A DNA stretch of 64,000 nucleotides. Source: Echinarachnius parma (taxonomy: Eukaryota > Echinodermata > Echinoidea > Clypeasteroida > Echinarachniidae). A program made the translations under genes and the position numbers. Below are positions 17,245 through 37,577 of this stretch, one piece after another. The stretch spans positions 1 to 64,000 of the forward strand of contig JBAMJV010007754.1 in assembly GCA_037951105.1 (NCBI GenBank), written 5' to 3'. Under the pieces are notes generated by a model, which was not told where the DNA came from, ran no database searches, and worked only from the letters and a program-made list of their open reading frames with translations. Position 1 is the first letter of the stretch, and the number at the start of each line of letters is the position of its first letter.

Positions 17245-17310
17245 ATGGGAGGAACAGACTCCAAGCTGAATTTCAGGAAGGCTGTTGTACAGTTGACAAC
17301 AAAAACTCAG
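17245..17310 (+). CDS. HID1: HID1 exon 1 (start)
   Basis: It encodes MGGTDSKLNFRKAVVQLTTK and ends CAG|GTATGA at a codon boundary. Gly2 is the expected N-myristoylation site. The start context is AAAAATGGGA. Confidence 0.97.
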
Positions 17311-20300
17311 GTATGAAATATTTTCGCAGTCTATCAAGATTGTGCTCTTGTCGGTCCTTTTTGGGGATATACGCTTGTATGCGTTTGGGTTTCGCTGGTG
17401 TGAGAAAATGCACTGTTGTATGGTTCAGCTAAATGTGTGAGGATTGTTGTGCGGTAAACGGGGCGAGATTACGCTGCGAATGTGTAAAACCCGCTTTATA
17501 AACTTGAAATATACCGCACTGGGTTAACCTGAAGAAGCCAATTTGCAATTTGTAGAGCAGTGAATAAGCTTTGTAATTGACCATTTTTGTAGAAGACTGA
17601 ATAGTGTATACTGTATTGTTAGGAATAGAAGAAGTATTTTGAACGACATGATTTCATGGATTTTGTTTGTGCTCAATTATAACAGATTTGTTAGGGCTCT
17701 TATTTTTTTAATCTAGTACAAGAGGAACGTTTAATGGTTCGTTTTGATATTTTGATATTTTTGTTTACATGTTAATTTTTTTATGGAAACATTCTGACTC
17801 TGAATCTGAGGAAAACAGAAATCAAAACAAGACAAAGTCAAAGTTAAAACTAACTTAAACAATGCTCCCCAGGAAGTGGAGAGAGTGCACAATAAGTGCT
17901 GGATTGATTGTGGGTGTGTATCTGAGTCTGGTAAATATATATTAGCCACAAAGTGAAAAGGCTAACTTGGTCCTGGCCTGGCTGGATAAACAAAGCTAGT
18001 AAAAGTAAAAGAACAACATAAAAATTAGCAAATTCAGTTCCTTAATTCATTGCGATATGGTGCATTGACATGCATCTATCACTTATTTTCACTTTACGTA
18101 TATTAGTCTAGTAGTCTCCAGAAGTAGGTCAAAGACCGAATTCACCTAGTATCGGCCCTCCGGCCACAGACTTCAATCAACCCACCAGCACAAATACTTG
18201 GGAGTATAGTAACCCTGTCTTCAGACATGAAATGGAATACACATGGCCGGGCAGGTCCAAGCTAATGTCCCCCTTGATGGTGAATGATCTTCATTTTAGC
18301 ATATCAAGTTTGGTATCATTTAAAAGCTAATAGTCTGATGTTCAGATTTTTAGTGTGGAAATTTGCATAATCTGCATATTTAATGAGTAGGGGTCATCTC
18401 ATTTGCATATTTCAAATATTAGTGTGACGTACGGGACATAACATTTTTATTTCTAATATTTATTTAATCAATGAAGCATTACTTTCATATATGGAGACTA
18501 TTAAAACTAATTACTAGCAATAGTTGACCAAATTTTTAAGTTTCAAAATTAATTGATTATGCTAATTAGGGCGTGTCCAAAATGCTATGTCCTGTATACG
18601 TCACAAAAATGAGCACATTTTTAAATATTTCAATATGAAACAGTTGATTTTTTTCTTTCATATTCTGTGAAGTTCTAATTTATCATACTCCTGACCTGCT
18701 AGCCAAGTTTGATGAAAAAAACATTTTATTAGCTAATTAACAAATGTGACGTACGAGACAAAAGTGTGACGTACGGGACATGTTCAGTGTTAAAGCAATG
18801 GCAAGGCAGGTAAAAATTATTTGTTTGTGTTTTAACTGCTGATCATCAGAAGAATACATGCTTCGATGCTCTCCAGAAGTTCAGAATAGATAGGTCTTAC
18901 CTTCAGGAGCCATCTCTAAAAAGAATTCATGTTTTTCATTTCATACTTCGTGATATAGCCATATTTTCATGAAAATATGTCTTGAGGGAGAAATTTGAGA
19001 TATCTTAAAATTACCTTTAATTAATTATATAAAATACTAGACAATCAATTTGAGTAGGGAAATTGCATGTGAATGAAGGAGAGACAGTAGTACAGTGGTT
19101 AAGTACACCAAGACCTTCCAAACCGGTTCAAAAACTGTAAGAAAGTGCTAAAAAGGCACAAAATATTATCACTTATTCTTCTGAACAGTCCCATGTATAG
19201 GATTTCATGTAAGTTGCCCCATTTTCGATGATTCTGTTTAATTTACTCATATTTATCTCTTTTTTGGCAAATTTAAAAGTAATTGTCATCAGAAGAATGT
19301 CACCTACACATATTGATGCCAGATAAAATATTTTTTGTTAATTATTAATTAGGAATTAATTAGCTTAATTAATTAACATTTGTTTTAAGTCTTATCGTAA
19401 TTTTTTGTATAAGTATTTTTAATTTTTATTTCATCAGAATATTAGATTTATACAATAAGAACAAATATATTGCAAAATAAAATGAAAGATTATGAAATTA
19501 AAATAGAAAAGCGACATAGTTTTAGTGAGGAAAAAATGTCCCGTACGTCACGCGCATACCTATTATCTTTCATTAATTATCGTGGGAAAAAAGTTGTGAA
19601 TTAATTAATTTGTTTGTAGTGTGTACTTGAATGTTTACTCAACGCTCGAAATTAGCACAGGCCCGATGGCCCGGGGCCACCAAAAATTGTTGTCGGGCCA
19701 GTAAAAAAATCATTTTACCCATGTTTGCTGGCCCGATCGGGCCACCAAATGTTGAAACCATGGTGCAGAAAATAATGGTCTATGTTTGCAAATTTAATAC
19801 CATACAGAAAACACTTGAATTGTGATTTAAAAAGGAAGCAAAAAGAAGTAAAAAATGTTCAAATAAGAACGCTTTCCGACATTTGCCTCGAGTTCTCTTG
19901 AGGCAAATGTCGCAAAGCGCACTTTTCATGTTCATAAACATAAACAAGGCATTGTTCTCCCCGCCACCCACCCCCCCCCCCCCCCCCCCCCCCTCAGTTT
20001 TTTTGCTGTTGCCTCATATGAACATCCTCCCTTCAACTTGCATAATAAATGAAATCAATAAACTACTTTCAGAGGGTGTGTGATCGGTAAACTACAACTA
20101 CTTCTGCTGTTTTGCCAACCACGTGTGTGCATAGGCCTAGGCATGAAGTGCACCAGCTGCCCACTCAATATTATACACAAGCATACTACTCATTCACTGT
20201 GCTTGCAATGAAACTCGTATGGCATGATTTGTATCGGCAAGAATAGGGTTTTAATTCCTCTTCCAGATGATTTATAAGGTTTGACATGAATTATGAAGGA

Positions 20301-23300
20301 ATAATCATAAGAAGGTATGAATTTGTTTGTTTCTAAATATGATATTACTCTAGAAATGCAATAAAGTTTTCCGAATTTGTTTAAAAGAAAATGGTTATAG
20401 CCCAGTCCCACACATGTATATTTGTGTTAGTACATTGTAAGTACTATCAAACTTCAAAATCGTACATTGAAACTTCCTAAATTCCATCATTTGGTTTCCC
20501 CAAGATAAGTCCATTTCTTTCATATATAATTTTATCAGGGCTGTGATTTTTAGGATGATATCAATGATTCACATATTAATGACTTGGATTAAAGTCTACA
20601 AAAAGCTATCACTCGGTATCAGATCCATACTTCATTTTACTTACGTTTTTCTTTATTTTTTTTCGGGCCAGCAGATTTTAGTTTCGGGCCAGCAAAATTA
20701 GAAAAACACTAATTTTACTGGCCCGACCGGGCCACCAGCAAAAAATGTTAATTTCGAGCGTTGGTTTACTGAATGCATATATTACAAATTAGTTAGTATT
20801 AGCCCTGTAGATTCAGAGCATTTTCATGATACCTAATTTTCCAAAAAAGTCAATATTTCTTTGGTCCCGTACGTCAAGCTGCATATTAATTAGCATAATT
20901 AAATATTAATGAGCGATTTAAATATTATTTTTTTGCATTTTAGGAAGGGACTGCAAGTAGCTTTCCAAAGCACCAAAAAGATTCCAAATCATAGCTTCTT
21001 CCTCTTAGTAATAATCAATTAAAAGCTGTGAATGTCCCGTACGTCACAAGTCAAATAGCTTGGACCTGCCCACATGTAGACAAGATCGTCTCTAAAGCCA
21101 ACAGCATGATAGGATTTTTACGCCGTAACCTAGGATCTGCCCCCCGTAAAGTGAAGATTCAAGCATTCAAGAGCCTTGTACGCCCCCACCTAGAGTACTG
21201 CAGCTCCGTGTGGGATCCACACACCAAGGTTAACATCAAGAAAATAGAGGCCGTCCAGAGACGTGCTGCCAGATTCATCATGAATGACTACAAGTGGGAA
21301 AGCTCGGTAACAGCTATGCTGTACTAGACATGTGCATTGTATGTTGACTTTTATCTTGGATTCTTTGGTGCACCTGCTCCCCTTTGGTTTATTTCGAACA
21401 TGTATTCGGTGCATAATTGTAGTTTTGTTTACGTTTACTGAACTCTGTAAAATGATGTTGTAGGCGGCTAACCAACCTGTTTCCTACTAGATTTTGCAAT
21501 TCCCATTGAGTTAATACAGGAACCACTAGTTAACCACATTTTCTACCAAAGTGTGCCCACGACTTGGCATGCATTACTAAAAGAACCCATGCTCTATACA
21601 AATTTTGTAGGGCATTGATCAGTTCTTTACGGCATGCATGCCAAGTCGTGGGCACGTTTTGGTAGAGATGCCGCTTCCTGTAGGCAATGAGCTAACTATC
21701 ACATGTATTGTAATTCTCTTTCTCCTCAACTTTGACCACCGAACAGCCCGTGGAAGCCGGAGACGATGCGTTCTGGGACCAGTTCTGGGCGGACAGCGTC
21801 ACAAGCGTGACGGACGTGTTTGCCCTCATCCCGGCTGCTGAGATCAGGGCGCTGAGAGAGGAGTCACCGTCCAACCTAGCAACTCTTTGTTATAAGGTGA
21901 TTTTAGAGATTAGCAGAGTTTTGTTGTTAGAATTAGTGCTGAATAATTACCAAAACATCAGGCAGTTAGTTATCAGGCACTGAGAGAGGCGTCACCCTCC
22001 AACCTAGCAACTCTTTGCTATAAGGTGACCTTAGAGATTAAACCAGTTTTGTTACTAGATGTATAATAATTAGTGCTGTAGAATTTTGGTTATTTCCATA
22101 AACTCTATAGATTAAACCTGTTACCAATAAACCAAGCAGTTATCAGCCTCTGAGAGAGGAGTCACCCTCCAACCTGGCAACTCTTTTCTGTAAGGTGATC
22201 TTAGAGATTAGCAGAGTTTTGTTGTGTAAGAATTAGTGTTGTTTGGTTATCCTGTCCTATCACCAAAAAACAGGCGGTTATCGGTTAACCCATGGATATT
22301 CAGCATTCTTTTAACAATTTGTTGCACTGGTGCTGATGGATTTTTCATTCATAGTGTACCGTTGTAAGCAATTTCCTTCATATTTTTAGTGGAGACAATT
22401 ATTTAAAATGCATAGCTCTATTAAGTCATATACATGTATGTTTAATTTATCAACTTATATTATGAATTAGTACCCACTTCTATTGTTTACCTATTATGCC
22501 CATTATGTCATACATGTACATTTTTGTAGATTGCAAACTGGGGTGTGAACAATTGTATTCATTCTTAATATATATCACTATATTATTATTAGGCTGTAGA
22601 AAAGCTTGTGTCTGCAGCAGAAACTGGATGTACTGCACCAAGGGACCAGCAGGTTGTGCTCAATGCAGTGCGTCTGCTTACCAGGATCCTGCCATACATA
22701 TTCGAGGATCCTGATTGGAGGGGCTTCTTCTGGTCCACTTTGCCTGGCCAATCAGTGAGTAGCTTTCATGTGAAGTACATAACCCTCTTGAAGAATTTAA
22801 CAAGCATGCTCTTTAAGTTTCTTGATTTATTTTAAAACTAAGTTCAAGATTTGAAAACTAATACCTTCTTTATTCTAAATATGTTCATGCTCGTATTTTT
22901 GGTTTGTTATATAATTTTTGTTTTTGGTTTCATCATTATCAATATTACTATTAGCATGCAAATTTCCTTTCTTTTTTTTAGAAGCCAAATTTTCCTTACA
23001 AAAGAGTTAATAGCATGCTGCGCATTTGAGAACTACAAATATCTAGTAAAAATGAGTTTTAATGCAAAACTAGTTTGAAAATTAATACCACTAATAAAAC
23101 ACAGTCTGCCAATAAAAATTGCTTGAGTACACTTCAGAATTGCAAACTTTGAATTGAAACTTCAACTTTCTGAACTTGAATGACAAATTCTCTCAGCTGT
23201 CATTAAAAATCTTCTTATTTCAAAATCATTAATTTCCTTCTGAAGGAATGGTTTCAAGATTTCCTTGCTGGTGCATCTCATGTTTTTCTTATTCCTGAAT

Positions 23301-26300
23301 AATGGTGTAAAAAAAAAGAATACTTGATTGGTAATAGTAAATGCTCACAAAATTCCTTCATAAAAAAACTTAGTCATGTTGGTGATACACTGGGAGCACT
23401 GTTTCAGAAGAAAGAAAAAAAATAATGTTATTTTGTTTTACACTCTACTTTCTTTTCATTTTAATCATTTTGATTTTAGCATGTGAACCTCATATTTCTT
23501 GGAATGTTTTTAACATATATCATCTAAATGTTTACGTATGGTATCACATTTAATCTTCATCATAATAGCATGCAAATTATGTAATTACATGTATTTTCTT
23601 TTCCCGAAACAACTTCTTTCTTTACCCGGTAGGCAAACATGGAAGGGGTCGATGACTTTGTAAGTTTATTTTCTTCTTCTATTTTCACCACTGCTTTCCT
23701 TTTTTCTCCTTTTTTTTTTTTTTTTTTTTTTTTTTTTGCATTAAAGTTGAAATTCACATTGTGCTTATCTTAGAATACTTAAAGGGTACCACCACCCAAA
23801 AATAATATTCTTATAAATGAAAAGTAACATCTTTAGTATTCCATTCCATCAACAAGTTCACAAAAATATGTTTCCAGAAAAAATATATATATAATTGGAA
23901 AATGCATCACCATTTTAAAGCATGCGTTCACAGGTCTGAATGTACAAGACTAATTTGTCCAGAGCGAACGAATCGCCCGGGATTCTATTGTCTCCAAACG
24001 TACGCGTGAATAGCATTGGCGCAAATGTTTGGCCTGTACAGAATCAGGAAATAGTAGTGGTTCCGTAAGTGATAGAAATTAATTGCTTTGTTTATGAATT
24101 ACACAACCCTTTGCAAAATGTTGGGTATCTATTTAATATCACAAAACGGGTACCAGAACATATAATTATGTGTTGTTCTTTGCCTGGTGGTCCCCTTTAA
24201 AACTGCATATATTTGATTATGTCAAATCAAAACAGCATTGTGTTATTGAATATACAAAATGAACTTTTGCGCATAGATCATTAAAAAAATATACACAATG
24301 TTTGTTTACTGGTTTCAGGCAGTTGTTTTCTACAATTGTGCATAGCTTAGGCTGTTGTTGAAGTTCACCAAGTTAGTTAGAAATTGTTAAAATATACATG
24401 TAGATTTAGTCAATTGCTGTTGTAGAGGGATCTTCTTCAGTTAAAGTATAAATGTGTGTAAAAGTGTACCCTTACATTTTGAATAGGAAAGTTAGAAATG
24501 TAATTGAAGTCGATTAATAGATTTTCTTAGAAGCAGAGCTTTGCATGTATGGTTGTTACTTCAAGTAGATACATGTGACCGGCTACATGTGACAAGCAAA
24601 ACCCTTGTACTTGTCCGTAATCAAGTTTTGAAGAAATGGGCATATAAAGTTCACATAATGTGTGTAAAAGACTTATGATTGTAAAATTAAAACAATCATA
24701 TCTTCGCCAATTATTGACCAATTTGTTTGAACAAAGTATCAAATGAAAGCTTGTGATGAGGCCTTCCTAATGGTATGAAAATCTACATTTTAATTGTTAC
24801 CAACAAGTGCAGTGTTTTGCTTTAGCCGGTCATCTAATTGTAAAGCTTTCATTCATGTAGTAAGTCATGTGAATTAGACCAAGAATTACAGTCTTTGTTT
24901 CAACGTTTCCTGTGAGTCTATGCCTTGCTTGACTGATCACCTCCATTCGAGACTGAATTTGCAGTGGATAGCAGACAGAGCATACCTGAGTGCCAATGTG
25001 TCATATGTGCACCAGACAATAAACACAAATGCTATAGAGCTGTAAAATCACTGGCACTCATTTTGTTAATCTGTGTATTGTGTAATGTGCAATTGTGCAT
25101 CAAAGTGAATAATTGTGTAGATCTATGACATCATATATGCATTGCACACATCCAATTGAAATGACTTGATCAATATAAATTTCTACGCTTTTTCCCACTT
25201 TTACGTTTGCTTGATTGAATTGTAAAAGTTAACCCAGCTGTTACGTGACGTGCAATACCTGCATCTGTCTGTGGATCCTGACTCCCTGTATACGGTTTGT
25301 AAAGTGTGAACATGAGCCTTAATTGATGTGCAAACTAATCCAAGACTTACATTAGGTAACCTGTTCTACCATCTGTGCTTGAGACATCTTAATCAAAATT
25401 CTTACACGTTTGTTTTGCTTGCTGATAAAATTAACCCGTTCACTACTACATGTAGATTCTGAAATCCCCATAGACTTTGAACATAGCCCAACGGTTCCCG
25501 TAAACAATGGGTTAACCAAACAGTTACATGTACATGGTGTGCAAGGTATGCTGGTTGGTTATTTTGGTTTTTACAGACGCGTTTGATCAATTATGATTAT
25601 TTACGTCTGGGATCCCCCTTTATCGTCACCTTCCGATAGATGGGCCAAGGTTTGAACCCGGGCAGATTAGTGCAAAGAGCGGAGCTCTGACCACTAGACC
25701 AGAACACCTCTTCAAGATATATTTGTACATGTTGTAGTCTTTGCAATTGTGGATAATTCTATTCAGTGGGTTTGTATGCACTTGAATGAGTTTGAGATGC
25801 AACACTCTTATATAATCACCAGACGTTCCAGAACTGATTTTTAATTGAGCAGGGTTTTTTTCGTACTACTTCTGTGTGGGTTTCTTTTTAAAGCTTTTTT
25901 TTTCCCCTTGAATTGTAACAAAATATGCATTTATGTGTTTGATAGTATACAACATGTATCTAGAAGCTACATGCACACATCTTACCATGGGTAATTCCTT
26001 TTAGCTAATTTGTAGAAATTAACGCAAAAACATGCACAGTCAAACCTGTGTATACTGTAGTGACCACCTAAGGGAAACAAGAAAAGTGACCATGGAAGAC
26101 AGGGGGTGCCTTTGTTTTTCTTTACAGGGAATCACTTTTGGTTGCCACCATAGACGGATCAGAATATGTGGCCACTACTACCAGTTTGACTGTTGTACTT
26201 ACATGTCATGTATACATTTACATCAGGGGGAAAAAAATAATATTGATTTTTCGGGGGCTACTTTTCAAGCTTTCAAGCATGAAAATAACACTGTAAAATG

Positions 26301-29300
26301 TGTTTTGCATTGAACTCTATGCACATTTATGGGGGCTCTTTTTGGCATTGCAGGGGCGAATTCGCCCGGAGCCCCGTGTATTTGTTTTCACTGATTTACA
26401 TGTATTTTTCTCCTAGTTTCCAGGCATTGCCTGTACCAAATCTGCCTATTGGCCACCAAAAGTGATCTCTTGAAGTGAAAAGCTGTATTATGGTAGTACA
26501 TAGTTGTCTATAGAGGTCACCTACTTTTATACTTGTGGTCACTATGTGTATGTGTACAGAATTAGGATTTAACTACACTGTGTTGTGGTGAGGAGTCGTT
26601 GCACCTAGCACAAATCTTGCTGACTGCACTGCTTTGGTCTGCTGTGATAAATTATTTAATCTATGATTGAGTGAAATTATTATTTTTTAATTGCTATAAA
26701 CCAATAACAGTATTTGTTCTTTAAACTAAATTAACAATGAATTCCTTCATTTCTGTGATTTGGTAAGTCTAAATTTGATGTGGTAAGTCTCATTTCTTAA
26801 TACATGTCCTCAAATTGGCAAAACTCTATTTGGTATTTGTATACAAATTGGCTTAAGACCTGCATCTGAATAACCCTCTATTTCAATGTAGGAATTCATT
26901 TTTAATTTTAGGGGGCTATTTTTTCAATCTGATGGATATCACAAAATATTTCACATAATACCCTATATATGGTAATCATGTTGTAGTGGATTGGACTCTT
27001 GTCTTTCAATGTGAGGGTCACAAACTAAACAATACTTCAAGTGCAGAGTGATTGTGTGTTTCTCACATGTATGACCTGAGTAACTGTACTACAGCGCCTG
27101 GCGCATCGAGAAATCAATCATATGAAATACATTACATAACATACTCATGATTGTTATTATTTTATTAATTGTTTAATCATTTTCCTACCTTGTGTGCAGA
27201 GTGATGAGGAGTCCCTGCCCCTAGCCCAGTCCCTGCTGGCAGCCCTATCTGATCTCCTGTTCTGCCCAGACTTCACTGTGGTTGCAGCAAAAAAGACAGG
27301 ACCTGTGAGTATCTTACTATTCTTGATGGAAGCCAGTAATTTTTTTTTTTTTTGGGGGGGGGGGGATGGGGTTATATTTCTATTAATTATATTACTTTTG
27401 TGTATTTTGTAAGGTCTCCACACAGCCTAGTTGGGTCAGTAAAAAGTAAAAAAAAAATCCTGTTGATTTTTGATAACCTGAAACAAAAAATTTCTTTTTT
27501 TTGTTTGCTATTTTATAATACAATGCTAGAAATTAACTGTTTGCCTTGTCGGGAAAGTTAAAAACAAGATTTCTTCAATTTCTAGTAGTCGGAAACATGA
27601 ATCCGGTGGCCCCAATTAAGGAAAAACAGCAAATTATGTTATATTTGGTTGCCCATTCAACCAGTGGAATTAAGGATCAATAAGTTTTGGTGGCCCAAAG
27701 CCAATATTTAGTGACCCCATGCCAGCGGGCCTGTGTTAATTTCTAGCACTGTATAATGTGTTCCTTGATGATTCATGATCTTTTTAATACCTATGTAGGA
27801 GAAGCCAGAAGATCCACAGTCCATTGACAGCTGCGAGTACATCTGGGATGCAGGGGTGGGGTGCGCCACCGCCCCTCCCCAATACGCCCACCTCGACCAG
27901 AACCGGACTGAGATCCTCAAGCTTCTCTTGACCTGCTTCTCTGAGACCATGTACCTGGCACCAGCAAGTAAGTGCTTTCCCTCTCAACCCTTTTTCTTTG
28001 TGGACTTTTTTTTCTTTGATGTTTTTTTTTTAGTTGTTCTCTGCCCCTCCCCACTATGTCCACCTCGATCAGAACCGGACAGAAATCCCCAAGTTGATCT
28101 TGACCTGCTTCTCAGGGACAATGTACCTGGCACTAGCCATTAAGTCCCTTTAGGTTGAAAAAAGGGGGGTCTCATAATTTCTAGGCTGTACATAGCATTT
28201 CTCTAACATTAAACTATCACACATTTTTTTCACTGGACATTACCAAATTGAATCCTAATATAAATAGATGGCTATTTCAAAGAACAATAGTTTCTTCTTT
28301 GTAGACTAATTTTGCTCAAACCTTCAAACATTGTTTGTGATATTGAACAAAAAATTGCCAGTATTGAATATCCCTTTGGATGTTGCATTCATTAACCCAC
28401 TCTCTTAAAGGGACTTAGTAACATTGTCCAAATCCTCAAAATAAACTTCTCATTCTAGCGGTTCCCTCATACCTCGTTGTATTCGTATTAACAATAAAAT
28501 CATGGGACAGGTTTCAGTTTTTCAAATTTCCCTTTCGTTACAAAGATATGTACGATTGAAGTATTCAGATAAGAAAAACTCCGGGCGAGTTTTTCTTCTG
28601 TGGACAAAGTGAGTGCAGTGAGTTATTGAATATCACTTTGCATTTTTCGCTCATTACTTGGCCATGCAATGTCCATTTGACTTGAAATGTTCACACAATA
28701 CCCTGTGGACATATGAGATAACAATAATATACATTGCATCAACCATTCATCACTTTTTGCACATCCTTTTTAAAGATCCCTTTAAAGATTCTAAGATAAA
28801 CTTTGCATATACCCCACCAGGTGTCTGTGGGCAAAGAGGTTAATTAATTGCATTTCTTGTATCATGCCAACTTACCAGGTGATGCTCACAGCTTACCCAA
28901 CCAGTGGATCAGCTTCTTCTGCTCTTCAGATAACAGGTATGTACATTGTTGTTTGTTTGTTTGTTTGTTTTGTCTGAGTTCATATGCAAAAACAGATATA
29001 CACCAACGACTTGTGCGTGAAAATGATAGCAACTTTGCAATTGGTCACAACTCTTTATGCAACAACCCCATGCTCTTCAATCACCTGACCTTTTCTTATA
29101 GCAAATATGCATTATTTCCGTTCTGGCCAGACATGGGCCAGCTACTGTTCTTATCGCTGCTGAATATTTGTATGTATTACCCTGTTAACTATGGTGTGCC
29201 CTACAACCACATTCACTTCTCAGCCACATGATTGTACACATATTGTAAATCTTTAATTAACCTAATTTTTGTCGAGCCCACAGAGGTGGTGGGAGACTAA

Positions 29301-32300
29301 GGGATCCAAATTGCGTCCGTCTGTCCTCCGTCCGTCCGTCGTCCGTGACGCTTACAACAATTTGAATAACTTTTAAACCCTGCATCTGTTTGTAACCAAA
29401 CTTGATTGGTAGATGCCCTATATTGGCCTCCGTGATATTCTGGGGTCAAAGGTCACATAAGTAGGTCAGAGGTCAAATGAGGTCAACTGTGAAAGTTTAC
29501 CTGCAAGACTCTAATAGGGTTGATAACTTTCCAACCCTGCATCTGTTTGTAACCAAACTTGATTTGTGTGTGTTGGTTTTTTGATGAATGCGCACAAGTG
29601 GGCAAGACACATTACGGCAATCGCCAAATTCAACCTTTCACATTGCTATTCCAGACATGCCCTACCACTGTTCACATCACTGCTGAATATCGCCTGTGCT
29701 TACGACCCTGTGGGCTATGGCATGCCCTACAACCACCTGTTGTTCTCGGATACCAGAGAGCCCCTGGTAGAGGTAGCCTCCCAGATCCTGGTGGTCACCC
29801 TGGACCACGCCAACCCGCACAATGTGGCGCCCTCCGTTGACGGGGCCGAGGAAGTCCATGAGGTAAAGTTTCAAAAGTTTGACTATTATGTAGAATTCAA
29901 GCAAACAATAAACAATACAGTAGAAAAAACTTGCTACCTCATATTGGCAAAACAGCTTCAAAGATGGCATGCCACTTACACCATAGCTTCTGGTATACGT
30001 GTTAATAACTTGTTCAGTCTATGTAAAAACAAGAGGGTTTTTTTGTTGATCAAAATGATATTCATATTATAAGAATTTTATGAAAAATTGCAGTATTGTA
30101 CAGAGAATATTTTTCTTGTTTGTGAAGAAAAAAGGATTCAGGATTCCTCATTTAGTTTTCCCCTATGTTACCCACAAATAGCAAGAACAATGATACTTGT
30201 AATTTTGTATCGATCGGCTTGTTTGTTGTTTACCTTTCTAAGTATGGTTGTTTTATTGGTGTGTCATTTTAATTTGAAGTTCTTAATCATTTTCTTTGTG
30301 TATTCTTTCAGGGTGTGCTCCCAGAGAACCTGTTTGTGAATTATCTATCCCGTATCCACCGGGAAGAGGACTTCCACTTCATCCTGAAGGGCATTACCAG
30401 GCTGCTCAACAACCCCCTTATACAGGTACCAAGTCCTTCCTTACAAACTACAGTCAAACTTGTTTTAGCGGCCACATGACTATAAATAAAAGAGCTAGTG
30501 ATCTTCCGGAAGATGTGTAACAAGTAGTTTCTCATGTGCAATGATTCAATACTGTTGATGTCTATAAAATACTTACTTTGGGTTAGTTTGAGTATGCTGG
30601 ATTCTTTCACAGTCACTTTAACTACGTTTGCATTATTTTCTTTGTACAGACTTACATTTTGGGGTCAACTAAGAAGAAAGCCTTTCACCAAAAGCTACTG
30701 GAACAACAGGTTCTTCAGTTACTCTGAATTATTATTGTATACATACTGGTTAGTTTATGATAATAATAATAATGGCCACTTATAGAGCGCTGTCATGTCT
30801 GTCACAATGTGACTCTCCTGGCGCTATTGTATTCAAAGTCTTCTCTTCTTTTGTTTACAGACTTACCTACCTGGGTCAACCAAGAAGATAGCGTTTCACC
30901 AGGAACTGCTTGTTCTCTTCTGGAAGATGTGCGACCACAACAAGAAGTTCCTCTTCTACGTACTCAAGAGCAGTGATGTCCTGGAGGTGCTGGTCCCCAT
31001 TCTATATCACCTCAATGATGCTAGAGCTGATCAATGTAAGTGTTTTAGGCATCAGGGAAACTAATTATGGCATATCACAAACACATTGCAAGTCCCTGGA
31101 CTCCCTCACAAATAGATATATGAAAAATGGTGTGGCTTACTAAGACTAGGGGGTGTTTCACAAAGATCCTAAGTTGAACTTAACTCTAAGTTGGACTTAA
31201 AAATGATGATAAGCCATTTGTAGTCTCAGAATAAAAATACATTCAAAAGCAAAAATGCAAGTATTTTGGACTTTTCATAAATTTTACACCAAGAAAATGA
31301 AATCTCCTTGATAATAGAAAATATTTATAACTTGAACCAATATTTTATGCCTTTAAAAATAACTGTAAGTCCAACTTAGAGTTTTCTTTGTGAAACACCC
31401 CCCAGGGACCGAAACAAAAGGTTTCTCTTCTACGTGCTGAAAAGCAGTGATGTTCTGGTGGTTCTAGTCCCCATTCTATATTACCTCAACGATGCAAGAG
31501 CTTACCAGTGTAAGTGTTTTCGGCATCTAAGAAACTAAATTTGTTTCTTAATTCAGCCAGAAGCTTTAAGCGTTTGTATTGCATAATTTATTATGATCGT
31601 CATTGTAATTGCTTTTATTCAGATTGTGAAATGTATGTTTTAATTTGCTGATTTTGCCTTTCAGCTCGCGTTGGTTTGATGCACATTGGTGTTTTCATTC
31701 TGCTTCTGCTGAGTGGAGAGAGAAACTTTGGAGTGCGTCTCAACAAGCCGTACAGCGTGCGTGTTCCCATGGATATTCCTGTCTTCACAGGCACACACGC
31801 AGACTTTCTTATTATAGTGAGTTAAAATGCTTTACTAGAAATTCAACTAATTCAACGCACATATTCACAAATATATGAGATGTAGATATTTAATGTCCGT
31901 TTGTATTCCACTATTTGTTTTCAAAGTCGTCATTAGGTCTTGGTCTTTTACATAATACATTGTATGTTTGTGTTTGTTTTTCAATAAGATGTTCATTTCA
32001 AGAATTGTTTGATTATTTGTTTCTTATTATAGTCAATAAATTATGCGCACAAAAAATGAGAAGAAAATAAAATAATTAGCATCCATTCACTTGATAATTG
32101 TGTTATTGCATATTCCAGAAACACATTCTTTTAAAAACAATAAAATAAACAAACAATAAATTAAATTTTAAACAGTTAAAATTTGATCAGCATGTATATA
32201 TCCTATTCAGCCATGTTCCTCAATTCCTAGCTTCTAATTCATTGTAATGCATCTACATGTGTTACCATCTAACTTTTCATCAGGTATTTCACAAGATCAT

Positions 32301-35300
32301 CACATCTGGACACCAACGGTTACAGCCTCTGTATGATTGTCTTCTTACAATCATTGTTAATGGTATGTCTGTGTTTTGTTTCCAATTCAAATTGTCTACA
32401 TGTAGTAACTGTCATTCCTTGCCCTGAAGAAGATCCAGCTAGGATTGAAAACTAGGCTCCTATTGACGATCTATTTTGATTTCATAGAGAGGGGAAATAC
32501 ATTCAATGAAAACAAATTAAATAAATTATGCAATGTTGTACTTTCTAGATTACTTTTAAACGAATTTGCTGCTAGTAGTAACAACTTACATGTAGCCCAA
32601 AGCAGCAGAAGAGAATTAAAATCATCAAAGAGTCCCATTTAGTAGTTTCTCAGAGGGGGGAGGGAGGGGTAATTAAATATCTGGTGCATTTAGGCTATAA
32701 AAGTGAACAAGAGGGAGGTTACTTTTATTTTTCCAGTTTTCTCATATGTGGAAGGATTAACCTGAGGTATATTAGTTTTAAAATAAGGTATTTCTAGGAA
32801 TTATTCTACTTTTCAATAAATTATCTCTTTACCCCAGTCTCCCCATACCTGAAAAGTCTGTCCATGGTGTATCACCCAACAATAATTTGCATTGCATTGT
32901 TTAGTTGAATCTTTGTAGATTCATAAGGAAGAAGAGCAAGAAATCTGAGATTTTACATAAGCTATTACTAGAAGTTATACTTACATTTTTATAATGACTG
33001 CTCTTTTTCCCCTCAGTTTCTCCCTACCTGAAGAGCCTGTCCATGGTATCGGCCAACAAGATGTTGCACCTGCTGGAGGCATTCTCCACCCCCTGGTTCC
33101 TCTTCTCCAGCCCGGCCAACCACCATCTCGTCTTCTTCCTCCTCGAGATCTTCAACAACATCATCCAGTACCAGTTTGACGGTGGGTACAACATTTGTTG
33201 CTTTTGATGTAAATGTTGCTGATGTTGTGATGTAATGGTGTACTGTTTTTGTAATTGTGGTAGTGATTGTGTGGTTGCTTTTGGTAGTGCTGTTACCGCT
33301 AATGCTCAAGATCTTTAACACAGGTCATCCAGTATCAGTTTGATGGTGGGTACACCTTCTGTGGTAGGTGATAGTTATGTTGTGGTTTGAGTTCTGATGT
33401 TGGTTTTGTTATTGTGATAGTCTTCAACAACATCATTTTATAGTTTGTTCATGTTATGTTTGTGATGTATGATTATTTTGCTATGGCGATATTGGTGTGA
33501 TTGTGATTGCATTATCTGTTGTCAATCAGTCAGACATACATCTAGAAGAGAAAATCTTTATTCTGGTGAATTTGTTGCTGATATTTGTTCACAACTATTT
33601 CTTTATTATTTAGTTTTTAAGTTATAACAATTTATAAGCGTCTTGTACCTCCTTCTGATGTAGGCAACTCCAACCTGGTTTACACCATCATCCGAAAGCG
33701 TGCAGTGTTCCATCAAATGGCCAACTTGCCAGCACATTAAACATCAATTTTAAAGAGAAAAGCTTTGTTATGGTCAATTTGTTTACAATTTTCTGTTTGT
33801 ACTTGTTTTAAGTTTAATAACTTTAGGTATTGTAATCTTCCTTCTGTTACAGGCAACTCCAACCTAGTGTACACCATCATCCGGAAGCGTACCGTGTTCC
33901 ACCAGATGGCCAACCTGCCAGCCGATCAGGCGTCAATCTCCAAAGCCCTTGCGAAGAGGAGCAAGAAACTCAACCCTGGCCCTAGTAGTGAATACCCAGA
34001 GGGTATATCCATGGAGGGGTCCATGCAGGCAGCAGAGGCTGAGCCAGGAACACTGAAGGCTACGCTGCTTGCTACACCAGGTAATTTGTCCCTCGGATAG
34101 GATGTTAAGTGGAAATTATGTGTGTAGGATTAACCCATATTTAAGGTTTTTTGAAGCACTACTAATGCACACTAAAACAGTATGGATTACCCGGAGGCAA
34201 CATCCATGGAAGGTTCTATGCAGGCAGCAGAGGCTGAACCAGGAACACTGAAGGCTACACTGCTTGCTACACCAGGTAATTTGTCCCTCGGATAGGATGT
34301 TAAGTGGAAATTATGTGTGTAGGATTAACCCATACTTAAGGTTTTTTAAAGCACTACTAATGCACACTAAAACAGTATGGATTACCCGGAGGTAGCGTCC
34401 ATGGAAGGGTCCATGCAGGCAGCAGTAGCTGAGCCGGGAACACTGAAGGCTACACTGCTAGCTACACCAGTAGCACATTTCATAAAACACTTGCAATTGT
34501 TGTAAGTGTCCAATTATTGTAACTATTTGGTCAACAGCAATCAGCATGGAGCATTACAGCTGTTGCCATGGTAGTTACACTAATTGGACACTTACAACAA
34601 TTGCAAGTGTTTTATAAAATGGGCTACAGGTAATATGTCCCATGGATCCCTAAGTTGATTTCTTAATCCTTTGGGTTTGTGTCAGGTTTATGATAGCTTC
34701 TGACCATCACAAACATTGAATACTAAGGGGTTTTAGGGAAGAACGCAGCATCAGGGTTTTCTATAGCTCAGCTGGTAGAGCACCGGTCTAGCAATCCAGA
34801 GGTCTTGGGTTCAAATCCCTGAGAAATCCCATTTTCTTTGCTCAGTCTTCAAATACATATATGTATTATAAATAACTTTCATTCTGTAATGTCCATATTG
34901 TTTCTCTTTGCAGGTGTGTCGATGATGACGGAGACATCCAAGGTGATGCCTGGTGAAGCAGCTGCAGCTGCTGCAGCCATGGTGGAGAGAGCGGGTGAGG
35001 AGAACCCAGAGCTGGCTGGGGGAGGGGGAGACAACATGGCTCTGAGTGTGAGTATTTTAGCCCTGTCTTCAGGTTTATTTCTCTATGTTCCCATTCACAT
35101 ATATATTTTCTTTATGCCTGTGCCAGTGTGCCATGATTCACCAGAAGGCATTATTTTTTAGAATTAAATAGAAGATTTATCAAATGGTGACCCCAACCCA
35201 GACTTGGGTAGCCTAGAACATAGAAAACATGTTAAAAATCTATTTCATCCAGTTCATGTGGTCTGGCAAGTAAAATGGGACAATAGTGAAATTCTGGTGG

Positions 35301-36386
35301 CCTCAAGCTTAATTTTGAAGGCCCCTTGTACATGTAGTGCCTAGTTTGAGCCCTGTTTTATTCTCTTTTTGCATCCCCAGATCAAAGCAGCTGTGTCGGA
35401 CACAGAGAGCCAGGCCCCGGAGTCCAGCAGGCAGCCTCCCCAGGACGGTCAGGCTAGGACGCGGTCATCGTCGGACGAGGCTCGACCCTCCAACCTGCAG
35501 AGGACTGGCTCCACGTCGTCCAGCACGGCGGCCAGCGTGGTGGGAGAGTGGAGGCCCACTCCAGAATGGGTGAGCATGATTTGATGTTTGTATTAGTCAT
35601 CAAATGTGTGTAAGTGCGGGCTGGCATTTCATCCTATGACCGGGGTAATGATAGTGTAAGGTGCTTAGAGATTTAATTGTACAATATTAGGTGCTATATA
35701 AATCAAACCTATGATTATTATGTTAAGTCAGAAGATTTTAGATAGGGGTAAATTTAGTTTAAAAGGATGATTTCCCATAGAGATGATTTCATATAAGGTG
35801 CTATAGAAATCAAACATATTATAATTATTATTATCATTATCATTGTTATAATTAATACAGGTGCAATCATGGAAGCAGAAGCTGCCCCTTCAGACCATCA
35901 TGAGGCTGCTACAGGTCTTGGTGCCTCAAGTAGAGAAGATCTGCATTGACAAGTGAGTCCAAGTTTATTGTCATTTTCCAATAGTGATATCACAAAGTCA
36001 GTGGGGATTTTCCCCTCTACATCATCACGCGCCTGTCAGAGGGGCATATTACAGCTAAATTATATTAAACAGGAACTCCTCCAAATCATATCCAACTTTA
36101 CATTTAAACTCTAATCCACCAGATAAAAGATGAACAATATGTAAAGTGCAAGTTGCATTTAATATTGTGTTTGTTGTATTTGATATTGTAGGCAAAGGAT
36201 TATTAAAGTGTATTTCTTTATTTCCAGGGGGCTGACAGACGAGAGTGAAATCCTCAAGTTTCTCCAGCACGGCACCCTGGTCGGTCTGCTCCCCGTCCCC
36301 CATCCCATCCTCATCAGGAAGTACCAGGCCAACTCTGGCACCACACTCTGGTTCCGCACGTACATGTGGGGTGTCATCTATCTCAG
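17245..36386 (+). CDS. HID1: HID1 domain-containing protein (18 of ~19 exons)
   Basis: HID1 is a conserved peripheral protein of the medial/trans-Golgi, N-myristoylated, needed for dense-core vesicle biogenesis; the worm mutant forms dauers at high temperature. The 18 exons join in frame with no stop and give about 810 codons collinear with the vertebrate protein (788 residues). The N-terminus MGGTDSKLNFRKAVVQL keeps the myristoylation glycine. Conserved blocks include YIFEDPDWRGFFWST, YDPVGYGMPYNHLLFSD, LSRIHREEDFHFILKG, FHQELLVLFWKMCDHNKKF and HPILIRKYQANSGT. Exons 15-16 form a variable Ala/Gly- and Ser-rich linker. The final exon (vertebrate NVDPPVWYDTDVKLFEIQRV) was not found. It is divergent from CCNF; introns are rich in transposons and exon copies. 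Confidence 0.97.
17311..18127 (+). other. HID1 intron 1, 5' part; nothing recognised
   Basis: AT-rich intron with no repeat family, exon copy or RNA gene that I recognise. Confidence 0.5.
18246..21071. mobile_element. DNA transposon with TIR and subterminal repeats
   Basis: The ends hold a perfect 15-base inverted repeat, GGGCAGGTCCAAGCT (18249-18263) and AGCTTGGACCTGCCC (21057-21071). ACATG is duplicated on both sides (18241-18245, 21072-21076). Inside, GTGACGTACGGGACA recurs: plus orientation at 18424, 18746 and 18766, reverse orientation at 19537, 20863 and 21033, with a degenerate reverse copy at 18589. No transposase frame is visible, so it is non-autonomous. Without its nested insertion it would be about 1.7 kb. 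The superfamily is not assigned. Confidence 0.85.
19640..20763. mobile_element. hAT-like element nested in the TIR element
   Basis: Perfect 15-base terminal inverted repeats, CAACGCTCGAAATTA (left) and TAATTTCGAGCGTTG (right), are flanked by the direct repeat GTTTACT. Subterminal GGGCCAG/CTGGCCC and CGGGCCACCA motifs occur at both ends. A 7-8 base target duplication fits hAT elements. The interior has a hairpin (GACATTTGCCTC/GAGGCAAATGTC near 19880-19910) and a run of more than 20 C at about 19971. No transposase is seen. Confidence 0.85.
21542..21666. mobile_element. small inverted-repeat MITE
   Basis: About 30 bases at each end are inverted copies: TCTACCAAAGTGTGCCCACG ... and CGTGGGCACGTTTTGGTAGA. 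It lies just upstream of HID1 exon 2 in intron 1. Confidence 0.8.
21747..21896 (+). CDS. HID1: HID1 exon 2
   Basis: A 50-codon exon reading PVEAGDDAFWDQFWADSVTS and ending EESPSNLATLCYK, near-identical to the vertebrate protein. The acceptor is GAACAG and the donor AAG|GTGATT. Confidence 0.97.
21846..22210 (+). repeat. tandem copies of HID1 exon 2 end plus intron flank
   Basis: The block CTGAGAGAGGAGTCACC..CCAACCTAGCAACTC..TATAAGGTGA plus the following TTAGAGATTAGCAGAGTTTTGTT is present three times: in the real exon and again starting near 21979 and 22150. The two intronic copies keep the donor-like TAAGGTGA but carry substitutions and no acceptor. The spacing of copies is 128 and 170 bases. 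Confidence 0.9.
22593..22754 (+). CDS. HID1: HID1 exon 3
   Basis: A 54-codon exon with AVEKLVSAAETGC and RLLTRILPYIFEDPDWRGFF. The acceptor is TTATTAG and the donor TCA|GTGAGT, phase 0. Confidence 0.97.
23633..23659 (+). CDS. HID1: HID1 exon 4 (27-base microexon)
   Basis: Nine codons, ANMEGVDDF, between the CCGGTAG acceptor and the GTAAGT donor. They fill the acidic, variable linker between exons 3 and 5 in phase 0. The exon is short and not conserved in sequence, so it could be optional. Confidence 0.7.
23779..24200. mobile_element. TTAA-flanked MITE, family 1 copy B
   Basis: Ends TTAAAGGGTACCACCACCC and GGTGGTCCCCTTTAA match copy A at 11868-12313, and most of the interior aligns (for example ACATCTTTAGTATTCCATTC and GAGCGAACGAATCGCCCGGGA). 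It lies in HID1 intron 4. Confidence 0.85.
24574..24834. mobile_element. TGTGACCGGCTA MITE, copy A
   Basis: The ends are TGTGACCGGCTA and TAGCCGGTCA, inverted. The whole 260-base body is present in reverse orientation at 42438-42696 (for example GGTATGAAAATCTACATTTTA). Non-coding. Confidence 0.8.
25430..25520. repeat. short TTAACCC/GGGTTAA repeat
   Basis: TTAACCCGTTCACTACTACA ... CAATGGGTTAA resembles 38800-38946 and 5085-5215, with the same inverted TTAACCC ends. Confidence 0.5.
25618..25712 (-). repeat. tRNA-derived SINE head (second type)
   Basis: Read on the minus strand, TGGTCTAGTGGTCAGAGCTC resembles a pol III A box region and GGGTTCAAACC a B box about 35 bases later. The cloverleaf stems do not pair well, so this is a SINE relic rather than a tRNA gene. 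Confidence 0.5.
26035..26200. mobile_element. MITE with ACAGTCAAACCTG ends
   Basis: It starts ACAGTCAAACCTGTGTATAC and ends CCAGTTTGACTGT, a terminal inverted repeat. It shares GACCACCTAAGGGAAA and GGGAATCACTTTTGG with the family at 8190 and 14806. A related fragment follows at 26441-26560. It lies in HID1 intron 4. Confidence 0.75.
26222..26380. repeat. short copy of the GGGGGCTACTTTT repeat
   Basis: TCGGGGGCTACTTTTCAAGC and GCAGGGGCGAATTCGCC match motifs of 410-720. Confidence 0.65.
27200..27304 (+). CDS. HID1: HID1 exon 5
   Basis: A 35-codon exon with ESLPLAQSLLAALSDLLFCP and DFTVVAAKKTG, matching the vertebrate LAESLLLAIADLLFCPDFTV. The acceptor is TGTGCAG and the donor CCT|GTGAGT. Confidence 0.96.
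27521..27751. mobile_element. hAT-like MITE
   Basis: Inverted ends CAATGCTAGAAATTAAC and GTTAATTTCTAGCACTG are flanked by near-identical TTATAATA/TATAATGT. The ends resemble those at 19640 and 7063, and the interior has GGCCC/GGCCACC motifs. It lies 48 bases upstream of HID1 exon 6. Confidence 0.75.
27799..27967 (+). CDS. HID1: HID1 exon 6
   Basis: It encodes SIDSCEYIWDAGVGCA and RTEILKLLLTCFSETMYLAP, well conserved. The acceptor is TATGTAG and the donor GCAA|GTAAGT, leaving one base. Confidence 0.96.
28037..28146 (+). pseudogene. decayed copy of HID1 exon 6
   Basis: CCCCTCCCCACTATGTCCAC, TCGATCAGAACCGGACAGA and TTGACCTGCTTCTCAGGGAC repeat the 3' two-thirds of exon 6 (27869-27972) about 170 bases downstream, ending in a damaged donor (CATTAAGT for CAAGTAAGT). 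It lies in intron 6 and has no acceptor in the expected place. Confidence 0.9.
28405..28785. mobile_element. TTAA-flanked MITE, family 2 copy A
   Basis: Ends TTAAAGGGACTTAGTAAC and GATCCCTTTAA. It aligns along its length with 47777-48155 and in part with 63560-63800. Its left end is in HID1 intron 6. Confidence 0.85.
28879..28936 (+). CDS. HID1: HID1 exon 7
   Basis: A short exon reading SDAHSLPNQWISFFCSSDN, equivalent to ESGSTNPWVQFFCSTEN. The acceptor is TTACCAG and the donor ACAG|GTATGT. Confidence 0.93.
29127..29230 (+). pseudogene. decayed copy of HID1 exon 8, upstream
   Basis: CCAGACATGGGCCAGCTACTG, then CGCTGCTGAATATTTGT and ATGGTGTGCCCTACAACCAC, copy the acceptor and first ~100 bases of exon 8 (29651-29752) with about 20% difference. 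It breaks at TCAGCCACATGA. It lies in intron 7, ahead of the real exon. Confidence 0.9.
29262..29560. repeat. interspersed repeat with CCGTCCGTCC and GTCAAAGGTCA
   Basis: GTCGAGCCCACAGAGGTGG, a CCGTCCGTCCGTCC tract and two copies of CTGCATCTGTTTGTAACCAA separated by GTCAAAGGTCACATAAG. The internal repeat of about 155 bases and the style suggest a common dispersed element. Confidence 0.65.
29655..29862 (+). CDS. HID1: HID1 exon 8
   Basis: It encodes HALPLFTSLLNIACAYDPVG, YGMPYNHLLFSDTREPLVE and VASQILVVTLDHANPHNVAP. The acceptor is TATTCCAG and the donor GAG|GTAAAG, phase 0 at the end. Confidence 0.97.
30312..30425 (+). CDS. HID1: HID1 exon 9
   Basis: A 38-codon exon with ENLFVNYLSRIHREEDFHFI and LKGITRLLNNPLIQ. 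The acceptor is TCTTTCAG and the donor CAG|GTACCA. Confidence 0.96.
30648..30728 (+). pseudogene. decayed copy of HID1 exon 10, 5' part
   Basis: TACAGACTTACATTTTGGGG, TCAACTAAGAAGAAAGCC and TTTCACCAAAAGCTACTGGA repeat the acceptor and first ~65 bases of exon 10 about 210 bases upstream of it, in intron 9. Confidence 0.88.
30861..31035 (+). CDS. HID1: HID1 exon 10
   Basis: It encodes TYLPGSTKKIAFHQELLVLF, WKMCDHNKKFLFYVLKSSDV and VPILYHLNDARADQ, closely matching vertebrates. The acceptor is GTTTACAG and the donor CAAT|GTAAGT. Confidence 0.97.
31149..31403. mobile_element. GGGGGTGTTTCACAAAGA MITE, copy A
   Basis: Inverted ends GGGGGTGTTTCACAAAG and CTTTGTGAAACACCCCCC, with subterminal AACTCTAAGTTGGACTTA and its reverse. 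A second copy is at 39454-39765. It sits between HID1 exon 10 and the decayed copy of its 3' half. Confidence 0.85.
31404..31530 (+). pseudogene. decayed copy of HID1 exon 10, 3' part
   Basis: TTTCTCTTCTACGTGCTGAA, AAGCAGTGATGTTCTGG and CCATTCTATATTACCTCAA, followed by GTGTAAGTGTTTTCGGCATC, copy the last ~95 bases of exon 10 together with its donor and the first ~25 intron bases (31036-31060). One deviation is TACCAG for GATCAA at the exon end. Confidence 0.9.
31665..31816 (+). CDS. HID1: HID1 exon 11
   Basis: It encodes RVGLMHIGVFILLLLSGERN, FGVRLNKPYSVRVPMDIPVF and TGTHADFLII, among the most conserved parts of the family. The acceptor is TTTCAG and the donor ATA|GTGAGT. Confidence 0.97.
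31817..32283 (+). other. HID1 intron 11; nothing recognised
   Basis: AT-rich intron with no identifiable repeat or exon copy. Confidence 0.5.
32284..32362 (+). CDS. HID1: HID1 exon 12
   Basis: It encodes VFHKIITSGHQRLQPLYDCL and LTIIVN. The acceptor is CATCAG and the donor AATG|GTATGT. Confidence 0.96.
32835..32882 (+). pseudogene. decayed copy of HID1 exon 13 start
   Basis: CCCCAGTCTCCCCATACCTG and AAAAGTCTGTCCATGGTGT copy the acceptor and first ~40 bases of exon 13 (33011-33056), 180 bases upstream in intron 12, then diverge. Confidence 0.85.
33017..33181 (+). CDS. HID1: HID1 exon 13
   Basis: It encodes SPYLKSLSMVSANKMLHLLE, AFSTPWFLFSSPANHHLVFF and LLEIFNNIIQYQFDG. The acceptor is CCCCTCAG and the donor GACG|GTGGGT. 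Confidence 0.97.
33303..33352 (+). pseudogene. decayed copy of HID1 exon 13 end
   Basis: AAGATCTTTAACACAGGTCA and TCCAGTATCAGTTTGATGG followed by GTGGGTACAC copy the last ~35 bases of exon 13 plus its donor and intron start. A further trace, GTCTTCAACAACATCATTT, is at 33420. Confidence 0.85.
33655..33740 (+). pseudogene. decayed copy of HID1 exon 14 start
   Basis: GATGTAGGCAACTCCAACCT, GTTTACACCATCATCCGAAA and CATCAAATGGCCAACTTGCC copy the acceptor and first ~75 bases of exon 14 about 190 bases upstream. It keeps a usable AG and an open frame (GNSNLVYTIIRKRAVFHQMA), then hits a stop (CCAGCACATTAA) and has no donor at the right place. Confidence 0.88.
33853..34080 (+). CDS. HID1: HID1 exon 14
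   Basis: It encodes NSNLVYTIIRKRTVFHQMAN, LPADQASISKALAKRSKK and AEPGTLKATLLATPG, as in vertebrates. The acceptor is GTTACAG and the donor CCAG|GTAATT. Its last ~95 bases are the first unit of a 195-base tandem repeat continuing into intron 14. Confidence 0.96.
33985..34470 (+). repeat. 195-base tandem repeat spanning HID1 exon 14 end
   Basis: Three units, with the ATGCAGGCAGCAG anchor at 34023, 34218 and 34413, an exact 195-base period. Unit 1 is real exon plus intron start; units 2 and 3 carry GGCAGCAGAGGCTGAACCAG, CTGAAGGCTACACTGCTTGC and the donor with GTCCCTCGGATAGGATGTT. Units 2-3 stay open in the HID1 frame over the copied exon part but lack an in-phase acceptor. The third unit is cut by a MITE at 34471. 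Confidence 0.92.
34473..34624. mobile_element. MITE with 45-base inverted ends, TA target
   Basis: ACATTTCATAAAACACTTGC ... and GCAAGTGTTTTATAAAATGG are inverted, continuing through AATTGTTGTAAGTGTCCAATT. TA flanks both ends. It is inserted in the copied donor region of the third unit of the exon 14 tandem repeat. Confidence 0.88.
34750..34850 (+). repeat. tRNA-derived SINE, head fragment
   Basis: TAGCTCAGCTGGTAGAGCA (A box region), CTAGCAA (anticodon-loop position, AGC-like) and GGTTCAAATCC (B box) are followed by CCCATTTTCTTTGCTC. The same head and tail occur at 44632-44712 (minus) and 50843-50905. The stems pair poorly, so it is a SINE and not an active tRNA gene. Confidence 0.75.
34914..35047 (+). 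CDS. HID1: HID1 exon 15 (variable linker)
   Basis: It encodes VSMMTETSKVMPGEAAAAAA followed by AMVERAGEENPELAGGGGD. This is the low-complexity, poorly conserved linker of HID1. The acceptor is TTTGCAG and the donor AGT|GTGAGT; phases fit both neighbours. Confidence 0.88.
35381..35569 (+). CDS. HID1: HID1 exon 16 (Ser-rich linker)
   Basis: A 63-codon exon rich in Ser, Arg, Gln and Pro, ending SVVGEWRPTPEW, which matches SASGQWSPTPEW of vertebrates. The acceptor is CCCCAG and the donor TGG|GTGAGC. Confidence 0.93.
35620..35850. repeat. SINE/LINE 3' tails (GGTGCTATATAAAT)
   Basis: AATATTAGGTGCTATATAAATC and ATAAGGTGCTATAGAAATC, each followed by an ATTATT-rich tail, match the 3' end of the full SINE at 44395-44712 (read on minus). 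They are 5'-truncated copies just upstream of HID1 exon 17. Confidence 0.65.
35861..35952 (+). CDS. HID1: HID1 exon 17
   Basis: It encodes VQSWKQKLPLQTIMRLLQVL and VPQVEKICIDK. The acceptor is AATACAG and the donor ACAA|GTGAGT. Confidence 0.97.
36228..36386 (+). CDS. HID1: HID1 exon 18 (last one found)
   Basis: It encodes GLTDESEILKFLQHGTLVGL, LPVPHPILIRKYQANSGTTL and WFRTYMWGVIYLR. The acceptor is TTTCCAG and the donor TCAG|GTAAGA, so one more exon of about 20 codons should follow. Confidence 0.97.
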
Positions 36387-36808: not shown

Positions 36809-37577
36809 TTAAAGGTATGGTGAAATCCCGGCTTTGATTCAGGTTTATAGCTTTGAATATGTGCCTATATTGATATACCACACTTTTTTTCTCAAAGAAA
36901 TCCTTTAGTTGGGCAAAAAAAGGTTAAATTTCATGCAACTTTTTGGAGTCGGCGTTCCATACTCCAAAAAAAGTGATTTATAGAGTGTGACGTCACTTGC
37001 AGTCTGTGACGTCACTTGCAGTCTGTGACGTCATCTATGACGTCATGAACATTTGTTTTTAGAAATTTCAAATTTGAACTTCATTTTCCGAAAGAGCGTC
37101 AAAAATAATGACCAAATACCGAAAATCAATTGAATATGTGAAGTATTGGCTGAGATATGCCCATGGGCAATTAGTGTTATAGATCTCTCGTTCATAAAGT
37201 TATTACCAGAGCACTATAACACTGATTGCCTATTGACAAAACATTCATTTGGATGGGCATATCTCAGCCAATACTTCACATATTCAATTGATTTTCGGTA
37301 TTTGGTCATTATTTTTGACGGTCTTTCGGAAAATGAAGTTCAAATTTGAAATTTCTCAGTACAAATGTTCATGACGTCATAGATGACGTCACAGACTGCA
37401 TGTGACGTAAATCTCCTTTTTTGGAGTATGGAACGCCGACGCCAAAGAGTTGCATGAAATTTACCTTTTTTTGCCCAACTAAAGGATTTATTTGAAAAAA
37501 AAGTGTGGTATATCAATATAGGCACATATTCAAAGCTATAAACCTGAATCAAAGCCGGGATTTCACCATACCTTTAA
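36809..37577. mobile_element. foldback element, ~370-base arms, TTAA-flanked
   Basis: The left arm from TTAAAGGTATGGTGAAATCC and the right arm to GGATTTCACCATACCTTTAA are inverted copies along most of their length, including TATGACGTCATGAACATTTG near the middle. TTAA bounds each end. The open frames inside are by chance. Confidence 0.92.

Follow-up and report, generated by a model that had tools for sequence, protein, structure and literature searches.

HID1 and the half-exon copies in its introns

The DNA analyzed here, a stretch of 64,000 nucleotides from Echinarachnius parma (hereafter, the window), comes from contig C7742 in an assembly of 1.2 Gb and carries the gene HID1, whose introns hold partial, direct, and decaying copies of the gene's own exons. 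The 18 modelled exons of HID1 join into a single open frame, with the start of exon 18 placed at 36228, and the joined protein, 810 residues long, matches the Pfam family Hid1 at 1.9e-267 in residues 1-809; the last exon was sought by pattern and not found. In COX1 of the assembly, a single AAA codon occupies the position of an invariant asparagine, which suggests a mitochondrial code of the echinoderm type, a code that some other animal groups share.

The copies, which we call half-exons, accompany exons 2, 6, 8, 10, 13, and 14, that is, six out of 18 modelled exons, or four out of 18 if only matches of at least 80% identity are counted (Table 1). Their alignments with the exons are 70-92% identical, span or touch an exon edge, and mostly continue into the intron; the splice AG or GT is retained in nine out of 11 copies. 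Dinucleotide shuffles of the region yielded no local repeats in five out of five runs, compared with ten observed. The first-pass annotation had described same-orientation partial copies at these six exons, and all the copies it named are present; of the range of distances that it gave, about 20-530 bases, the lower end was not observed, as the start-to-start spacings are 129-524 bp and the edge-to-edge gaps 75-444 bp. The two largest spacings, those of the exon 10 3' pair and the exon 8 pair, are explained by apparent mobile-element insertions, recognized by reading the sequence, that lie between the copies at 31141-31404 and ~29240-29620, respectively.

A search of the genome with the Pfam Hid1 profile gave 15 matches, with 50 out of 6324 candidates scored, and all of them fall on C7742 and on a second contig, C6671. 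A paralogue is thus an unlikely source of the copies and was rejected; a retrocopy origin was rejected too, since the copies carry intron bases. None of the 15 profile matches is a half-exon, and hence profile hits alone are unfit for counting such copies.

Contig C6671, collinear with the contig of the window over much of HID1, was taken to represent the second haplotype. None of the 18 modelled exons has a gap there, and all ten copy sites of the window have a match, the one at exon 8 being only 75% identical to the window's copy. In addition, C6671 carries extra copies at exon 13 (at both edges) and at exon 14, and has two copies of the 195-bp exon 14 unit vs. three in the window. The copy number at exons 13 and 14 is thus polymorphic between the two haplotypes.

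Table 1. Exons of HID1 with half-exon copies, and associated features of the window.
Feature	Position in the window	Strand	Location and spacing (bp)
HID1 (18 modelled exons; final exon missing from the model)	17245..36386	+	
Exon 2, intact	21747..21896	+	
Exon 2, 3'-partial copy A with donor	21972..22078	+	Downstream, 129
Exon 2, 3'-partial copy B with donor	22150..22241	+	Downstream, 298
Exon 6, intact	27799..27967	+	
Exon 6, 3'-partial copy, donor GT lost	28043..28145	+	Downstream, 172
Exon 8, intact	29655..29862	+	
Exon 8, 5'-partial copy with acceptor AG	29127..29210	+	Upstream, 524, apparent mobile-element insertion between
Exon 10, intact	30861..31035	+	
Exon 10, 5'-partial copy with acceptor AG	30633..30690	+	Upstream, 213
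Exon 10, 3'-partial copy with donor GT	31407..31538	+	Downstream, 474; ~210 without the insertion
Palindromic element like a miniature inverted-repeat transposable element (MITE)	31141-31404		Between exon 10 and its 3' copy
Exon 13, intact	33017..33181	+	
Exon 13, 5'-partial copy and intron	32774..32891	+	Upstream, 174
Exon 13, 3'-partial copy and intron	33305..33421	+	Downstream, 163
Exon 14, intact	33853..34080	+	
Exon 14, 5'-partial copy and intron	33583..33733	+	Upstream, 194
Head-to-tail 195-bp unit (3' part of exon 14 and intron), three copies, the third short	33984..34470	+	

Several other repeats were observed along the way. A MITE-like short inverted repeat (window 34471-34640) starts exactly at the point of donor loss in the third 195-bp unit, and on C6671 about twelve 156-bp units, ~98% alike, form an array at 108043-109921. 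The window also contains a minisatellite with a 17/33-bp unit (3583-4430), a long inverted repeat 3' of exon 18 with arms of ~370 bp, judged by eye to be probably a mobile element (36816-37580), and, outside HID1, a young tandem duplication of a 181-bp unit, 99% identical, with a 3-bp overlap at the join (51553-51917).

Occurrence, geometry, and size of the duplications

Local repeats are not peculiar to HID1. In the 12.6-kb interval with the half-exons there are ten of them (0.79 per kb), and in 13 other 10-kb blocks (130 kb), taken away from the match on contigs sharing a repeat with the exon 2 intron and hence not strictly random, we found 42 repeat clusters, at densities of 0-0.9 per kb; ten out of 13 blocks have local direct repeats and three have none. 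Shuffles of 20 tested blocks yielded no local repeats. Direct pairs outnumber inverted ones, 101 vs. 21 in 218.7 kb, and at spacings of 100-200 bp the ratio is 55 vs. 2, both haplotypes being included and some events thus counted twice. The satellite-rich block L019 was left out of the direct and inverted counts and kept in the block densities and cluster counts.

Half-exons recur in other genes as well. They accompany seven out of 16 myosin-head exons, in stretches picked without looking for such copies, and seven out of 16 CCT/TCP-1 exons, for which the prediction was recorded before the survey; pooled with HID1, this makes 20 out of 50 exons (95% interval 0.28-0.54). The myosin and CCT stretches were chosen from match lists for exon density, and the CCT count does not include the sixth stretch, C4646. 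Counted as exon bases copied within 1 kb at 80% identity, the load is 342 out of 2432 for HID1 in the window, 553 out of 2154 for 15 exons on C6671, and 485 out of 2844 for myosin. The first-pass annotation had recommended a survey of other genes for intronic exon copies, which these counts answer in the affirmative, and the same counts, together with block densities of the same order, do not support its suggestion of a locus-wide process; they are the outcome that it had itself named as pointing to a genome-wide feature. Two side observations concern the myosin loci: at L035 (3272-4241) a 126-bp array extends into a myosin exon at its 3' end, and contig C2768 has four myosin-head matches at ~27.8-39.2 kb and another four, with the same scores, ~90 kb away at 117.9-128.4 kb, which point to either a large duplication or an assembly artefact.

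The geometry of the copies is uniform. If a breakpoint falls within an exon and the whole exon is kept, a 5'-partial copy must lie upstream of the exon and a 3'-partial one, downstream. This is observed in 27 out of 27 founders (nine in HID1, 18 elsewhere), with no inverted exon copy and no copy on the wrong side among them; under random sides, the chance of such an outcome is ~1e-8. One myosin exon enters the 27 twice, through two likely alleles, and one of the CCT founders is visible only at a looser cut-off. Five pairs touch a profile hit only in its interior, so that the closer end of the hit was used to assign their side, and three founders are represented by such pairs alone. The 27 founders also include those of L029, picked for a copy already seen, and of its likely allele L030; both stretches lie outside the 16 myosin exons and contribute to the exonic spacings. 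No whole-exon copy with both splice sites was found within 900 bp of the surveyed exons.

The units are short, with a ceiling at about 200 bp. The smallest spacing is 60-200 bp in 72 out of 99 clusters, 201-340 bp in 14, and above 340 bp (with a limit of 900 bp) in 13. Spacings below ~60 bp are below detection, and thus the lower end of the distribution is detection-limited; the drop above 200 bp is not taken as a detection effect, because longer units should be easier to detect. Among the spacings up to 230 bp, exonic ones are longer than non-exonic ones, with 13 out of 23 vs. 13 out of 53 falling at 160-200 bp (P 0.0006, exploratory). A possible reason is that a short unit at an exon edge would bring a decoy splice site too close to the genuine one and be removed. 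The pairs with at least 90% identity and a spacing of up to 220 bp are head-to-tail contiguous in nine out of 12 cases.

Exon edges seem to be preferred. HID1, myosin, and CCT together have 31 founder clusters, of which 24 overlap exons, the circular-shift baseline being 0.38, the myosin and CCT exon baselines being derived from profile hits, with unlisted exons counted as intron. Exon-edge pairs stay detectable longer because one of the copies is constrained; in simulations covering substitutions and small indels, with large deletions and mobile-element insertions left out, this advantage amounts to a factor of 1.26-1.30. With the simulated detectability weight of 1.3, the excess has P 0.0002; raising the weight to 2 gives 0.009, and to 3, 0.10. 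Nine clusters contain a pair that is at least 90% identical, and by a hand count seven of them are exonic (P 0.02; 0.09 at a weight of 1.6). These data are suggestive of exon edges being hit more often than detectability explains, and the suggestion is weakened by the unlisted exons, by large deletions, which the simulations leave out, and by the fact that HID1 was discovered through its exon copies. The placement of the events at exon edges by the first-pass annotation thus finds some support.

Decay of the copies and competing explanations

Directly aligned real exons of HID1 differ between the alleles at 4, 0, and 53 sites in codon positions 1, 2, and 3, respectively, or by 2.3% overall, and the exon-derived parts of the copies differ at 2, 5, and 9 sites, with ~190 sites per codon position. 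Introns diverge by 4.2% if windows above 15% are dropped and by 4.7% before that (median 3.3%); the third codon positions of the real exons, at 6.5%, diverge faster than the introns. The retention of nine out of 11 splice dinucleotides is about what neutral decay at these divergences leaves.

Taking all this into account, the half-exons are very probably products of frequent short tandem duplication with one breakpoint in the exon, the copy decaying thereafter. Local tandem duplication followed by decay had been proposed in the first-pass annotation, and it is upheld by the geometry of all 27 founders, the lack of inverted copies among them, and the copy-number differences between the haplotypes.

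Several observations weigh against this interpretation. Differences between copies and exons, 16, 25, and 75 in the three codon positions (with r2 and r3, two copies of exon 14, being interdependent in this count), have a third-position bias above the naive expectation for neutral copies, and come close to neutrality only if the allelic third-position rate is applied; constraint on the copies, suspected from this bias, was set aside after calibration on the allele differences. The allele differences at copy positions 1 and 2 are few (7 out of 384), and this low rate leaves some room for constraint. Many older pairs are separated by a spacer. A test for spacer homology in 29 pairs is jointly significant (Fisher 8e-5), six pairs being below 0.05, three of these touching multi-copy stretches; it is insignificant in all five HID1 exon pairs tested (0.26-0.90), and therefore duplication with filler or local capture may account for those pairs. 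Contiguity is uncorrelated with identity (Spearman -0.19, P 0.12): 14 out of 20 pairs at 60-75% identity are contiguous, and one out of seven at 85-90%. Lastly, the exon 8 copy is 92% identical to its exon on C6671 (87674-87787) and 75% in the window, a disparity that requires gene conversion or a second event.

The copies could also have arisen by repair-mediated capture, a process known from primates (PMC2671141) in which a break is repaired by synthesis-dependent strand annealing and nearby DNA is copied into it. The segment sizes are alike (the mean of the proximal segments there is 162 bp), the distances are short, and there are spacers between some copies, the one at exon 6 having no detectable residual homology. 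We nevertheless consider capture improbable for the set as a whole, as it need not fix either the side or the orientation of the insert, and the same source reports an inverted exon copy, whereas here every founder is direct and has its copy on the side expected for a tandem duplication. A locus-specific instability, with duplication-prone exon edges in HID1 alone, is very unlikely: the repeats are dense in the interval with the half-exons, and the large introns 1 and 4 of HID1 have no local repeats, but the densities in the 13 other blocks and the half-exons found at 14 of the 32 exons surveyed in the myosin and CCT families led us to reject it.

If selection maintained the copies as exons used alternatively, now or in the past, this would agree with the retained splice dinucleotides, the third-position bias, and the scarcity of allele differences in the first two codon positions of the copies. 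The copies, however, hold a single exon edge, the exon parts of copies 2A, 8, 13 5', and 13 3' have gaps that are not multiples of three, and no whole-exon copy was found within 900 bp; hence this explanation was rejected as highly unlikely. An assembly artefact, with pieces of the second haplotype misplaced in tandem, is conceivable in an assembly that keeps diverged haplotypes apart, as the two HID1 contigs demonstrate. However, the copies are 70-92% identical to exons whose alleles differ by 2.3%; moreover, the copies are common to two separate contigs, each with private substitutions, and we give this explanation almost no credence.

A probable duplication process and known systems

On this reading, the half-exons are traces of an ongoing genome-wide mutational process that generates direct repeats with units of ~60-200 bp; the presence and orientation of the copies, their geometry, the haplotype differences, the recurrence in other genes and blocks, and the size ceiling are direct observations. 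A duplication with one end inside the exon and its second breakpoint in the adjacent intron would leave the full exon and a half-exon with a single splice site, the 5'-part half-exon ending upstream and the 3'-part one, downstream. Since the stray donor would then precede the stray acceptor within the intron, no new exon could be defined, and the copies are presumably tolerated for this reason. The half-exon would decay roughly neutrally while the exon stays constrained, and old exon-edge duplications would thus be recognizable longer than intronic ones; arrays can grow or shrink, as at exon 14 (three units vs. two). Candidate lesions fitting the ~200-bp ceiling are fork slippage, backward template switching, and faulty Okazaki-fragment maturation. 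A length of ~200 bp is close to the size of an Okazaki fragment or of a nucleosome repeat.

A more ambitious version of this model, which we offer tentatively and consider rather unlikely, is that germline tandem duplication has a hard ceiling at ~200 bp and favours exon edges, that selection purges short exon-edge units, leaving exonic ones mostly of 160-200 bp, and that about two fifths of coding exons carry half-exons, a load unlike those reported for human, fly, and worm. If genome-wide, the process would have left many short tandem duplications that can be dated, each tied to an exon whose intact partner is known. As the exon reveals which copy is the original, breakpoints, sides, and sizes would be readable for thousands of events and could be compared with replication and nucleosome maps. 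Annotators of such introns would also have to reckon with frequent decoy splice sites and partial copies that resemble exons.

Among the literature matches listed, no title or abstract deals with half-exon copies in echinoderms, most subscription journals being outside the coverage. In intron gain by tandem genomic duplication (PMC4974935), the duplication also touches exon and splice-site sequence; here, no new intron was seen, and the intact exon keeps the frame. Internal tandem and "alternative" duplications attributed to faulty Okazaki-fragment maturation in rad27 yeast, and discussed for human cells (PMC13202174), are likewise short and direct, some with internal sequence between the units; of features bearing on that pathway, a size ceiling near 200 bp was observed here, and none of the present data link the germline events to it.

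Tandem exon duplication, in which exon sequence is likewise duplicated into the adjoining intron of the same gene, has been estimated at 80% identity to involve ~2% of exonic bases in human, 0.08% in fly, and 0.06% in worm (PMC9013439); that study seeks candidate exons by another method over the whole gene, while here, counting within 1 kb, only half-exons were seen. The vertebrate repair-mediated duplications (PMC2671141) resemble ours in being local copies of ~150 bp, polymorphic, and possibly including parts of exons and splice sites; for two copied exons, no constraint was detected there. Copies less than 50 bp from the template were excluded there, four out of 824 donors were partial exon/intron sequences, and an inverted exon copy is included; in contrast, every exon copy observed here is direct and has tandem geometry. 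Finally, doublets (Thomas et al., as cited in PMC2671141), surveyed as near-identical duplicons of less than 100 bp, share with our repeats the abundance of closely linked short copies in the genome, and differ in that the units observed here reach ~200 bp, are both old and young, and affect many coding exons.

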